Assembly (NCBI RefSeq): GCF_006334915.2
Contig: NZ_VDMA02000001.1
Location: 310,001-374,000 of the forward strand
DNA length: 64,000 nt
Direction: 5' to 3'
Source: Microbispora catharanthi
GTDB taxonomy: Bacteria > Actinomycetota > Actinomycetes > Streptosporangiales > Streptosporangiaceae
Positions 60,514-64,000 of the stretch are shown here, piece after piece. Position 1 is the stretch's first letter. The number at the start of each line of letters is the position of its first letter. The notes beneath the pieces were generated by a model. It worked only from the letters and a program-made list of their open reading frames with translations. It ran no database searches and was not told where the DNA came from. A program made the position numbers and the translations under genes.

Positions 60514-62661
60514 TCAGGAGCTCGAAAGGATGACGAGTCGCTGGGTCGCGCGGGTCATGGCGACGTAGCGGTCGACCGCTCCTTCGATGCCCTCGCCGAA
60601 CCTCTCCGGGTCGATGAGGACGACCAGGTCGAACTCGAGCCCCTTCGACAGCTCCGGGGTCAGCGACCTGACGCGGGAGGTCCCCTCGAACGCGGGATCG
60701 CCGATGACGCAGGCGGTCCCTTCGGCGTGCTCGGCGAGCCAGGTGTCGAGAATCGCGCTCAGCTCCGAAACGGATCCGTGTACGACGGGGACGCCGCCGC
60801 TGCGGATGGAGGTCGGCACGTTGGCGTCCGGGAGCGCGGCCCTGATGACCGGCTCGGCCTCCGCCATGACCTCTTCCGGCGTCCGGTAGTTGATGCTCAG
60901 AGAGGCGAGTTCGATCCGGTCGAGCCCGATCCGCTTGAGCCGTTCCTGCCACGACTCGGTGAACCCGTGCCTGGCCTGGGCGCGGTCCCCGACGATGGTG
61001 AAGCTCCGGGACGGGCAGCGGAGCAGCAGCATCTGCCACTCCGCGTCGGTGAGCTCCTGAGCCTCGTCCACGACGATGTGCGCGAACGGGCCGGCGAGCA
61101 CGTCCGGGTCGAGGGCGGGCAGCTCGGACTCGTCGACCAGATTTCGCTGGAGGTCCTCCCGGCGCAGCTGCGTCACGAGGCCTTCACCGTCGTCATCGGC
61201 CTCGATCAGGTTGTCGACGACCTGGGCCATGTGCTCGCGTTGGGCGGCGAGAGCGGCGTCGCGCCGGCGCTTGCGCCGTGACGCCTCCGGGTCGCCGAGC
61301 CGCTGTCGTGCCGCGTCCAGGAGCGGCAGATCGGACACCGTCCAGGCCTGGGCGTCCGCGCGCTGCAGCTTCCGAATCTCCTCGGGGCTGAGCCAGGGTG
61401 CGCACAGCCGCAGGTAGGCGGGCACCGACCAGAGGTCTCCGACGAGATCGGTCGGTTCGATCAGCGGCCACGCGCGGTTGAAGGTCGTGAGCAGCTCCCT
61501 GTCGCGCAGCAGCGACTTGCGGACCAGGTCAGGCGGCGCGTCGCCGTCGTACTTGTCCACCAGGATGGTGAGCAGCTCCTCCCAGATCTGGTCGCGCGCC
61601 TCGTTGTGCGGAGTGCCCGGGTCGGGTGCTTCGAACGCCTCGGCCCAATCTTCGGCGCTCAGCCAGAGGCCGGACCAGGGGGTCGTGACCGTCATCCCCT
61701 TGGTGGGCGGATTCTCGTAGAACCTGACGGCCGGCTCGATCGCCTTCACCAGATCCGCGGACGACTTCAGGCGGGCCACGTCCGGGTCGGTCTCGATCGT
61801 CGCCGCCGCTCCCTCGGGGACGAGATCCCGCAGGGTGCAGGTCTGCACGCCCTCTTCTCCGAGGCTGGGCAGGACGTCGGCGACGTACGCCAGGTAGGGC
61901 TGGTGCGGGCCGACGAACAGCACGCCGCCACGGCGGTGACCGAGGCGAGGATCGGAGTAGAGGAGATAGGCGGAGCGATGCAGAGCGACGACGGTCTTCC
62001 CCGTTCCCGGACCGCCGTCGACGACGAGAGCGCCCCGGGATCCCGCGCGGATGATGGCGTCTTGGTCGGCCTGGATGGTGCCGAGCACGTCGCGCATCCG
62101 CGGCGACCGGCTACTGCCCAGGCTGGCGATGAAAGCGGACTGGTCGTCGAGCGCGGCGTGTCCCTCGAACCCGTCCGGGGTGAACACCTCGTCCCAGTAG
62201 TCGCTGATCCGGCCGCGGCTCCACCGATACCTGCGGCGGCTCGTCAGACCCATCGGATTGGCGTGGGTGGCTCCGAAGAACGGCTCGGCCGCGGGGGAGC
62301 GCCAGTCGAGCAGCAGCCGGCGACCCGCGCTGTCGGTGAGGCCGAGCCGTCCGATGTACACGGGCTCGGGGTCGTCCTCGCCGACCATGTGCCCGAGGCA
62401 CAGGTCCAGACCGAAACGACGCAGCACGCGCAGGCGAGCGGTCAGCCGATGGACCTCCAGATCCCGGTCCATCGCCTGCCGGCCCTTGCCACCGGGTGCC
62501 TTGAGCTCGGCCTCGAGGCGGTCGGTCAGGTCGGCGATCGACTGTTCGAGGCTCTCCGCGATGGCTGCGAAGTGCTGCTCGTCGGCGGCGATCAGCCTCG
62601 GATCGGCCTTGTGGGAGAGGCGGTCGGGAAGGTCGAACGCGCTGGTGGGCAGCGGGTTCAC
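60514..62661 (-). CDS. helR: HelR-like RNA polymerase recycling motor ATPase
   Basis: GTG 62661, 8 nt after GGAG, gives 715 residues starting VNPLPTSAFDLPDRLSHKADP. It is a UvrD-like superfamily 1 ATPase: Walker A in GGPGTGKTV (around residue 235), Walker B with VVDEAQELTDAEW, motif III region VGDRAQARHGFTESW, motif IV-VI stretches SINYRTPEEV and YVAMTRATQRLVIL at the end, plus an N-terminal coiled coil (LEQSIADLTDRLEAEL) and a large insertion between the helicase lobes. This layout is HelD/HelR. HelR binds RNA polymerase and displaces rifamycins. The RAE-like element at 62850-62868 supports that identity. Confidence 0.88.
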   Translation of the reverse strand: MNPLPTSAFDLPDRLSHKADPRLIAADEQHFAAIAESLEQSIADLTDRLEAELKAPGGKGRQAMDRDLEVHRLTARLRVLRRFGLDLCLGHMVGEDDPEPVYIGRLGLTDSAGRRLLLDWRSPAAEPFFGATHANPMGLTSRRRYRWSRGRISDYWDEVFTPDGFEGHAALDDQSAFIASLGSSRSPRMRDVLGTIQADQDAIIRAGSRGALVVDGGPGTGKTVVALHRSAYLLYSDPRLGHRRGGVLFVGPHQPYLAYVADVLPSLGEEGVQTCTLRDLVPEGAAATIETDPDVARLKSSADLVKAIEPAVRFYENPPTKGMTVTTPWSGLWLSAEDWAEAFEAPDPGTPHNEARDQIWEELLTILVDKYDGDAPPDLVRKSLLRDRELLTTFNRAWPLIEPTDLVGDLWSVPAYLRLCAPWLSPEEIRKLQRADAQAWTVSDLPLLDAARQRLGDPEASRRKRRRDAALAAQREHMAQVVDNLIEADDDGEGLVTQLRREDLQRNLVDESELPALDPDVLAGPFAHIVVDEAQELTDAEWQMLLLRCPSRSFTIVGDRAQARHGFTESWQERLKRIGLDRIELASLSINYRTPEEVMAEAEPVIRAALPDANVPTSIRSGGVPVVHGSVSELSAILDTWLAEHAEGTACVIGDPAFEGTSRVRSLTPELSKGLEFDLVVLIDPERFGEGIEGAVDRYVAMTRATQRLVILSSS

Positions 62662-62849
62662 GTCATCAGCTCCGATCTGGGTTGCTTGCACCGTTACGCG
62701 CACTGAGGCGCCCGAACCGCCGTGACGACCTGGTGACCATGACGGGTGACGCTCCCCGCCTGACCCATACATCGACGACACCACACGCACGTCGCATCCC
62801 CCGTTTTCCGCATGCGCTGCTTCCGGCCGACGATTGTGCGGCACGACCG

Positions 62850-62868
62850 GGGTCTTGCCGCAAGCCCC
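62850..62868 (-). promoter_or_regulatory. rifamycin-associated element (RAE) candidate
   Basis: Read on the minus strand, GGGGCTTGCGGCAAGACCC matches the 19-bp inverted-repeat RAE that precedes rifamycin-resistance genes in actinomycetes (consensus recalled as GGGGCTTGCGGCAAGSCCC). It is about 190 bp upstream of the helR start and in the shared region with the LysE-type exporter. Confidence 0.75.
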
Positions 62869-62883
62869 CCTGTCCGCTATACG
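62855..62883 (+). promoter_or_regulatory. promoter overlapping the RAE, directed to the LysE gene
   Basis: TTGCCG (62855-62860), 17 nt, TATACG (62878-62883) form a good vegetative-type promoter whose -35 lies inside the RAE. Transcription would start near 62890, exactly at an ATG. On the other strand TTGCGG and CACAAT are 19 nt apart, a weaker candidate toward helR. Confidence 0.5.
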
Positions 62884-62889
62884 TTGAGA

Positions 62890-63042
62890 ATGGAAGGGAG
62901 TGGGGAGTCCCCTTCCCTTGCTGTTCGCTCCGGACAGCCGACCCTCCTGCTGCCCCATCGCCCTTCGGCCGCGCCGGCGCGGTGCACCGGGTGGGAAAGC
63001 GGTTGCGGCGCTCGGACCCCCACCGTAACGATGAGCACGTGA
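62890..63042 (+). CDS. possible leaderless 50-residue ORF coupled to LysE gene
   Basis: The frame from ATG 62890 (MEGSGESPSLAVRSGQPTLL to a TGA at 63040-63042) begins 6 nt after the -10 element, where transcription should start, so it would be a leaderless message. Its stop overlaps the GTG of the LysE-type gene by 4 nt (GTGA), the coupling used at many junctions in this window. The protein has no recognised domain and could be a leader peptide; it may also be a chance frame. Confidence 0.4.
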   Translation: MEGSGESPSLAVRSGQPTLLLPHRPSAAPARCTGWESGCGARTPTVTMST

Positions 63043-63677
63043 TCTGGTTCGCTTTCGTCGGTTCCTGCCTCCTGCTCGCGATGATCCCGGGTGTCAGCAC
63101 CGCGGTGATCCTGCGGCAGACGCTCAGGGCCGGGCGCTCGTCCGGAGTCGCCGCCCTCCTCGGCAACGAAACCGGCATCTTCCTGTGGGCGATGGCCGCC
63201 GTGTTCGGTTTATCGGCGCTGGTCGTGGCCTCGGAGGTGGCCTACGGCGCGATGAAGGCGGTGGGTGCGGCGCTCCTGATCGTGATGGGCGTCCAGTCGT
63301 TGTGGAAGGCCAGGCGCGCGCCGGCGGCCCTCGACGCGTCCGTGCCGTACGGCGGGGACGAGGTGCGGACCGCGGACGGATGGCGCCGCTCGTACGGTCT
63401 GGGGCTCGCCACGTGCGGCGCCAACCCCAAGGCCGCCGTGTTCGCGATGTCGTTCCTGCCGCAGTTCGTGCCCCAGGGCGCTCACGTGCCGCTGACGCTG
63501 ACGATGCTCGCGGCGATCTGGGTGGTCGTGGACGTCGTCTGGTACGTCGCGGTGATCTGGCTGATCGGCCGGGCCGGTGCCGTGCTCGGCAGACCCGCGG
63601 TCCGCCGCCGTCTGGAACAGGTGTCGGGGACGGTCCTGGTCGCCCTCGGCGTCCGCGTCGCGCTGGAGGCCCGGTGA
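63039..63677 (+). CDS. LysE/RhtB-family exporter
   Basis: GTG 63039 gives 212 residues with six helices and the LysE-family pattern: IPGVSTAVILRQTLRAGRSSGVAALLGNETGIFLW near the N-terminus, MKAVGAALLIVMGVQSLWKAR, and NPKAAVFAMSFLPQFVP. Members export amino acids or other small molecules. It is divergent from helR and lies behind the RAE-overlapping promoter, so it may be induced by rifamycins. The alpha/beta hydrolase gene overlaps its stop (GTGA). Confidence 0.88.
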   Translation: MIWFAFVGSCLLLAMIPGVSTAVILRQTLRAGRSSGVAALLGNETGIFLWAMAAVFGLSALVVASEVAYGAMKAVGAALLIVMGVQSLWKARRAPAALDASVPYGGDEVRTADGWRRSYGLGLATCGANPKAAVFAMSFLPQFVPQGAHVPLTLTMLAAIWVVVDVVWYVAVIWLIGRAGAVLGRPAVRRRLEQVSGTVLVALGVRVALEAR

Positions 63678-64000
63678 CTGTCTGGCACGAGGAACGGGGC
63701 TCCGGTGAGCCCGTCGTCCTGCTGCACTCCGGCGTCGCCGACTCGGGCATGTGGGATCCCCAGTGGGAGCCGTTGGGGGAGCGGTTCCGCGTCATCCGGC
63801 TCGACTTCCGGGGGCACGGGCGCACACCGTGCGCCGCGGAGGGGCCCTACTCGGACGCCGGCGACGTCGCGGACCTGCTCGCGGCGCTCGGGCTGCGCCG
63901 GGTCGGGCTCGTCGGATCGTCGTACGGCGGGCGGGTCGCGCTGGAGCTCGCGACGGCCCATCCCGATCTCGTGTCGCGGCTCGTACTGCTGAACGCGGGC
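63674..64000 (+). CDS. alpha/beta hydrolase (3' end outside window)
   Basis: GTG 63674 overlaps the LysE stop by 4 nt. The 109 visible residues have the alpha/beta hydrolase start: VVLLHSGVADSGMWD (oxyanion HG-like site), RLDFRGHGRT and the nucleophile elbow GLVGSSYGGRVALEL with Ser as nucleophile. The remainder with the His is beyond the window. It is co-transcribed with the exporter; a role in processing the same compound is possible. Confidence 0.85.
   Translation, partial: MTVWHEERGSGEPVVLLHSGVADSGMWDPQWEPLGERFRVIRLDFRGHGRTPCAAEGPYSDAGDVADLLAALGLRRVGLVGSSYGGRVALELATAHPDLVSRLVLLNAG

Follow-up and report, generated by a model that had tools for sequence, protein, structure and literature searches.

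A divergent promoter-like arm as a likely standing part of the rifamycin-associated element upstream of helR in Microbispora catharanthi

The 64,000-nucleotide stretch of Microbispora catharanthi analysed here (contig NZ_VDMA02000001.1, positions 310,001 to 374,000; hereafter the window) carries near its end a helR gene, encoding an RNA polymerase protection factor, preceded by a rifamycin-associated element (RAE). Comparison with other RAEs leads us to propose, as the probable explanation, that two promoter-like arms stand back to back with the RAE as their common core. Of these, the arm that faces away from helR, towards a LysE-type exporter gene, is likely a decoy that would yield a short, terminated hairpin RNA and compete with the helR promoter for RNA polymerase until rifamycin is encountered. 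This outward arm is thus viewed as a likely standing part of the RAE and not as the promoter of the LysE gene.

The RAE and its mirror arms

The elements on which the argument turns are the following:

62850..62868, minus strand: RAE 19-mer, exact match, with a palindromic core offering a TTG-type -35 on each strand
62863-62858, minus strand, and 62855-62860, plus strand: pair of -35 hexamers in the RAE core, TTGCGG and TTGCCG respectively
62833..62838, minus strand: predicted -10 of the helR-facing arm, CACAAT, 19 bp from TTGCGG, at the conserved ANNNT place (+13/+17 outward)
62880..62885, plus strand: predicted -10 of the divergent arm, TACGTT, 19 bp from TTGCCG, at the place of the conserved TANNNT
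62892..62917, plus strand: hairpin GGAAGGGAGTGGGGAGTCCCCTTCCC then TTGCTGTTCG, a predicted promoter-proximal terminator starting at the predicted +1 of the divergent arm

The name, length and palindromic nature of the RAE have been described (PMC10719064; here and below, statements on cited papers refer to the available part of their text). The first-pass annotation had assigned the minus-strand 19-mer GGGGCTTGCGGCAAGACCC at 62850-62868 to this class, and the assignment holds, since it is a 19-bp palindrome matching the known sequence and stands upstream of a rifamycin-resistance gene, helR. It has no mismatch to the search pattern, whose letters we take to be those of the known element. With up to three mismatches, the window contains this single place, matching on both strands; shuffled windows gave a mean of 0.30 matches, with two or more in 5/100 shuffles. 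The 9.25 Mb genome holds two places at 0-1 mismatches, the RAE of helR and one before a glycosyltransferase gene.

The same first reading had described a promoter TTGCCG-N17-TATACG overlapping the RAE and pointing away from helR. These letters are present, and a promoter-like arm that points away from helR and has the RAE in common with it is retained here; comparison between loci, however, places the conserved -10 two bases further, as TTGCCG-N19-TACGTT. The two -35 hexamers overlap by three bases in the RAE core. A generic sigma-70 scan of 62600-63100 returned no promoter with spacers of 16-18 bp, a range that leaves out a spacer of 19, and no Rfam match with E ≤ 0.5 was obtained in 62500-63100. 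The letters first read as a LysE promoter are also present at other helR loci, as well as at the rgt locus of the M. catharanthi genome.

A shortened RAE pattern gave matches in 34/396 genomes drawn from the phylum and in 127/296 drawn from the class (the draws overlap, and the class places are those listed); a mirror-pattern control gave matches in 18/296 class genomes. RAEs were collected regardless of the adjoining genes, from the listed loci and 80 further stretches, which provided 135 sites with 80 bases on either side, 132 of them non-redundant. The core conservation among these sites is partly fixed by the search pattern. The flanks allowed 126 of the 132 sites to be oriented and left 6 unoriented, the -12 letters being partly used in this step; we call the arm towards the gene the near or gene arm and the opposite one the far or outward arm. 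As an independent check of orientation, 80 named helR loci were oriented by the gene itself, and 77 of them had a site that could be scored by script. Among the other three, L058 has a one-mismatch RAE with the same flanks by eye, L092 offers only 284 bases upstream, and no RAE site was found at L094.

An A at +13 together with a T at +17, counted outward, is present on 95.8% of the 264 arms of the 132 non-redundant RAEs (unoriented), while elsewhere between offsets 1 and 44 no such A/T pair is present on more than 30.3% of arms. The actinobacterial -10 (TANNNT) has A-N-N-N-T as its invariant part, and each ANNNT sits 19 bp from a TTG supplied by the palindrome. This -10-type motif is found on both arms of 125/132 RAEs, on one arm in 3 and on neither in 4. 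Two of the three one-arm cases (L207, L222) are one-base shifts on the divergent arm; among those without the pair, inspected by eye, L142, L177 and L236, whose flanks are unrelated, resemble chance matches, and L200 looks decayed. Among the mirror-pattern palindromes, 0/19 had the motif on both arms and 1 had it on one arm.

Once oriented (n=126), the two arms differ: the far arm reads TANNNT and the gene arm mostly CANAAT. The outward -12 letter is T in 124/126 far arms, and at the equivalent place of the gene arm (position 12 outward, 62838 in the window) it is C instead of T in 119/126, this letter having partly served for orientation. In the gene-oriented helR set, the far arm reads TANNNT at all 77 scorable loci, each of which carries ANNNT on both arms; by eye, the far-arm TANNNT is also present at 15/15 loci of the same genus, several of which belong to the same genomes as the named set.

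This architecture extends over RAEs standing before different resistance genes. On the near arm, the mechanically chosen open reading frames (ORFs) of 126 loci group into 21 clusters, of which the largest correspond to helR (51), rox (30), rph (16), rgt (6) and arr (3), together 106/126; these clusters were named from one representative each, three of the five reaching an NCBIfam cut-off, with the rph one a fragment and the rgt one below it. Both arms carry the motif in 50/51 helR, 29/30 rox, 16/16 rph, 5/6 rgt, 3/3 arr and 20/20 other loci. The far-arm ORFs, by comparison, are scattered over 119 clusters among 125 loci. Part of them are surely spurious, yet the same procedure recovers the near-arm families, so that the far arm appears to be kept without a common gene. 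Altogether, the two-arm architecture is well supported by the comparison of loci.

Some individual loci deserve mention. The second RAE of the M. catharanthi genome (L002, G000:C3:104843-104861) precedes an rgt-like glycosyltransferase gene and bears the same mirror -10s, while its far arm leads into the 3' end of an ORF that has the same strand as the glycosyltransferase gene; the glycosyltransferase clusters with a locus scoring 516 bits on the Rgt model, below the cut-off of 800. The RAE lies 0.95-1.5 kb upstream of helR in 20/77 named loci (L047, L051, L052, L062, L063 and 15 others), and at least 17 of these 20 have, among the matches listed, an rgt-like match between the RAE and helR (two as fragments only), which suggests RAE-rgt-helR operons. 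The gene arm of L201 and L203 leads to ABC transporter genes (PF00005, and a protein with a DrrB-type membrane match), which are possible further RAE-linked genes. At L111, some 3.5 kb upstream of helR, there is a second RAE-like site in the opposite orientation whose flanking letters are the same.

The outward hairpin

The outward arm is predicted to start its RNA at a conserved GG, some 24 bases away from the RAE. Many loci have a hairpin beginning at this point, and that of the window does so too. Segment 62886-62935 folds at -21.9 kcal/mol (z -1.97; 9/200 shuffles fold as well), and one terminator-like site, 62902-62917, was found between the RAE and the LysE gene, against 0.3 expected.

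The outward arms of the 77 named loci and the window align almost without gaps across loops of unequal length, and we therefore compared pairing within loci with that obtained after swapping arms between loci instead of counting pairs column by column. Far-arm pairing reached 16.66 within loci and 13.56 after swapping, a value that 0/2000 swaps attained, and near-arm pairing 10.48 and 10.02, with 46/2000 swaps attaining it. The named helR set with the window gave 20.3 against 16.95, again with 0/2000. Double changes in the stem are plain, the pair at position 26 being C-G in 48 and A-T in 40 of the 118 scored, in a triplet tally that includes many non-complementary cases, some of them due to a crude search on the 3' side.

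Strong stems were found on the far arm of 67/126 loci (53%), 36/67 having at least five T in the next 10 nt, and on 9 near arms, one with such a tail. In a pooled set, 136/204 qualify as strong, with a tail that is 46% T and 6% A. The folding energy of the near arm has a median z of 0.22, with 5% below -2. By eye, a hairpin-like repeat also follows the outward -10 at the four loci with a divergent LysE gene.

Proposed mechanism and competing readings

One palindrome would give a -35 to both strands, each arm having its own -10. Both arms would be active, the outward one being the stronger on account of its better -10, and the conserved poor -12 letter (C) may keep the gene-arm promoter weak on purpose. 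The two promoters should not fire at once because their -35 hexamers overlap, so that one polymerase at a time would be admitted. In drug-free cells, the outward arm would take most of the polymerase and idle on a one-hairpin RNA, which the hairpin would terminate, and the gene arm would be held off; rifamycin would then shift the balance towards the gene arm. The outward arm is thus likely to act as a decoy holding the resistance gene down until the drug is met. Exclusion at a shared site would not be enough to produce induction, since a polymerase arrested by the drug on the outward arm would continue to block the gene arm; therefore, a further step is probably needed in this geometry, either an RAE-binding protein acting when polymerase traffic falls or the active removal of arrested polymerase.

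Tentatively, we extend this proposal to a general one, in which the RAE, rather than a plain operator, could be an obligate switch between two back-to-back promoters: one arm, strong but gene-less, would idle on a one-hairpin RNA, and the other, deliberately weak, would make the resistance protein. It would work as a rifamycin alarm reading polymerase traffic, evolved independently of the Firmicutes and common to helR, rox, rph, rgt and arr.

The closest known parallel is the helD/pps dual-promoter rifampicin alarm of Bacillus subtilis. There, Panti-helD is an antisense promoter with a 19 bp spacer, it gives a terminated RNA of about 90 nt and is several-fold stronger than the sense promoter, and mutation of its -10 leaves helD highly active without drug and non-inducible (PMC12802891). 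B. subtilis helD thus shows that an opposed promoter can be a sensor, which provides the analogy for the outward arm of the RAE (PMC12802891). The likeness consists of the opposed promoter, the 19 bp spacer and the short terminated RNA, the last being predicted here. The greater strength of the opposed promoter was measured in B. subtilis, whereas at the RAE it is judged from the -10 alone (TANNNT versus CANAAT). The layouts also differ: the B. subtilis promoters are convergent and do not clash, with starts 39 bp apart, whereas the arms of the RAE, as read from the sequence, diverge back to back from one common -35 and are likely mutually exclusive. Bidirectional bacterial promoters with a palindromic -10 also exist. 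They likewise use one element for both strands; what they have in common is the -10, while the RAE has a common -35 and a separate -10 for each arm.

As for the RAE itself, the genes known to be under its control (rgt, rox, rph, arr, helR) have the same 19-mer and are of the same kinds as those found downstream here. According to a 2021 survey, RAEs are found upstream of two helD groups of actinobacteria, including one of Nonomuraea (PMC8655204). A 2022 review leaves open how the RAE senses rifamycin and whether an unknown activator is involved (PMC10719064), and a 2026 paper regards the mechanism as still to be elucidated, its authors adding that two convergent promoters are not a feature of all helD genes, the actinobacterial RAE being the other case (PMC12802891). 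The account of the RAE in the available part of PMC10719064 is that of a palindrome at sense promoters, and it does not mention a conserved, mirror-spaced divergent -10 or an outward hairpin. Likewise, the available parts of PMC10719064, PMC12802891, PMC8655204, PMC10194278 and PMC13001253 describe no divergent promoter at the RAE, and the terms sought are absent from PMC13246000; the original RAE and HelR papers (Spanogiannopoulos 2014; Surette 2022; Hurst-Hess 2022) may contain it. A conserved gene-less divergent promoter, predicted at almost every RAE examined, would make the question of how rifamycin is sensed directly testable, and, if the proposal is true, the actinobacterial and Firmicute responses would be linked by a common principle, the competition of opposed promoters.

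Several points weigh against this proposal. The ANNNT motif is its own reverse complement, and the hexamer alone gives no direction. With its G/C flanks, the palindrome hints at a dedicated binding protein. About half of the 126 loci have no strong stem, and 29.5% of swapped arm pairs also pass the cut-off; kinship among loci inflates the swap test; far-arm folding is only modestly better than that of shuffles (median z -1.24, 30% below -2); and the tail after the hairpin of the window is only moderately T-rich. In Mycobacterium smegmatis, two sense promoters are listed: the start of one is about 20 bp upstream of the RAE, and the other, P2, has its -35 in the RAE as proposed here for the gene arm; the available text gives no divergent promoter (PMC10719064). 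Finally, when the B. subtilis promoters were moved 17 bp closer, so as to clash, induction was lost (PMC12802891), which argues against a plain copy of the B. subtilis mechanism in the geometry of the RAE.

Among the alternatives, we regard as a serious possibility, short of probable, that the RAE serves mainly as an operator, overlapping both promoters and controlling them, for an unknown dimeric regulator that responds to rifamycin, the divergent arm being active but not sensing. Such a regulator would fit the palindrome with its G/C flanks and the strict 19 bp spacing on both arms, and an unknown factor has been proposed in PMC10719064 and in the discussion of PMC12802891. However, the scatter of the far-arm ORFs leaves that side of the RAE without a common regulator gene, though a regulator could be encoded elsewhere, and an operator leaves unexplained why a gene-less divergent promoter with a terminator is retained.

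It is unlikely that the outer hexamers belong to a longer protein-binding site, with no -10 and no outward transcription. The spacing is indeed unusually strict for a promoter, but the letters that vary are those at the weak positions of a -10, and the predicted start site is also where the covarying hairpin begins, in many cases followed by a T-rich tail. Reading the hexamers inward, as convergent promoters facing each other across the RAE, would come nearer to the B. subtilis layout, whose working pair is convergent, and the self-complementary ANNNT allows it. We nevertheless judged this very unlikely on the -12 letters, the TTG spacing and the side of the tails: the inward -12 is T in 26/126 far arms against 124/126 outward, although orientation partly used this letter; an inward TTG with a spacer of 14 to 21 occurs in at most 2/126 loci per arm against 126/126 outward, a figure fixed by the search pattern; and the T-rich tails stand on the outward side. 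The mapped position of P2 in M. smegmatis (PMC10719064) also speaks for outward-reading arms.

The LysE gene and other neighbours of helR

The genes around the RAE are the following:

60514..62661, minus strand: helR, RNA polymerase protection/recycling factor, NF041254 match
63039..63677, plus strand: LysE/RhtB-family exporter gene, PF01810, a neighbour not judged to be part of the RAE unit
63674..64000, plus strand, cut at the window end: alpha/beta hydrolase gene, a neighbour

These genes had been named in the same way on first reading, and the NF041254 and PF01810 matches support those calls. The helR identity is secure: the protein scores 1320 bits on the curated NCBIfam model NF041254, whose cut-off is 750, and its best solved-structure match is HelD 6yxu (E 2.2e-104), which we take to be the mycobacterial protein. 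The helR and LysE genes form a divergent pair near the window end, with the hydrolase gene after LysE.

The first-pass annotation had proposed that one RAE induces helR and, divergently, LysE and the hydrolase as a single rifamycin-responsive unit, and had named a comparison across relatives as a check. In this comparison the linkage is largely absent. While helR is present in 15/15 genomes of the genus, a LysE match at E ≤ 1e-60 is found in 9/15, and a tenth (G004) has a two-piece copy. The LysE gene is divergent and adjacent to helR in 4/15 (G000, G002, G004, G009), follows helR in the same direction in G005 and G011, is separated from it by about 2 kb in G007, about 8 kb in G008 and about 16 kb in G010, and is found on a different contig in G003. 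In the flanks of up to 5 kb of the named helR loci, a LysE match (E ≤ 1e-5) occurs in 3/80, all Microbispora. The adjacency in four genomes, the proximity (within about 16 kb) in five others and a promoter-like arm pointing towards LysE are what such a unit would lead one to expect. Against it, nearly every RAE examined has this arm at the same spacing, regardless of what follows it, a hairpin stands between the RAE and LysE, and six of the 15 genomes that keep helR lack a LysE match at E ≤ 1e-60, G004 with its two-piece copy being one of them. We thus consider a joint induction highly improbable, and LysE was ruled out as a regulon partner on its distribution and the intervening hairpin. More generally, this calls for caution in taking the divergent neighbours of RAEs as rifamycin-response genes.

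A weak separate candidate for the LysE promoter, TTGNGG-17/18-xANNNT, is seen by eye just before the LysE start at the four divergent loci. The divergent LysE copy of M. hainanensis (L021 / L036) matches in two pieces, as if interrupted, and the helR of G009 (L022) has one TAG within the matched range. On the other side of helR in the window, segment 57452-60393 encodes a WYL-domain regulator, a SigJ-type extracytoplasmic function (ECF) sigma factor with a weak SnoaL-like match, and a short-chain dehydrogenase.

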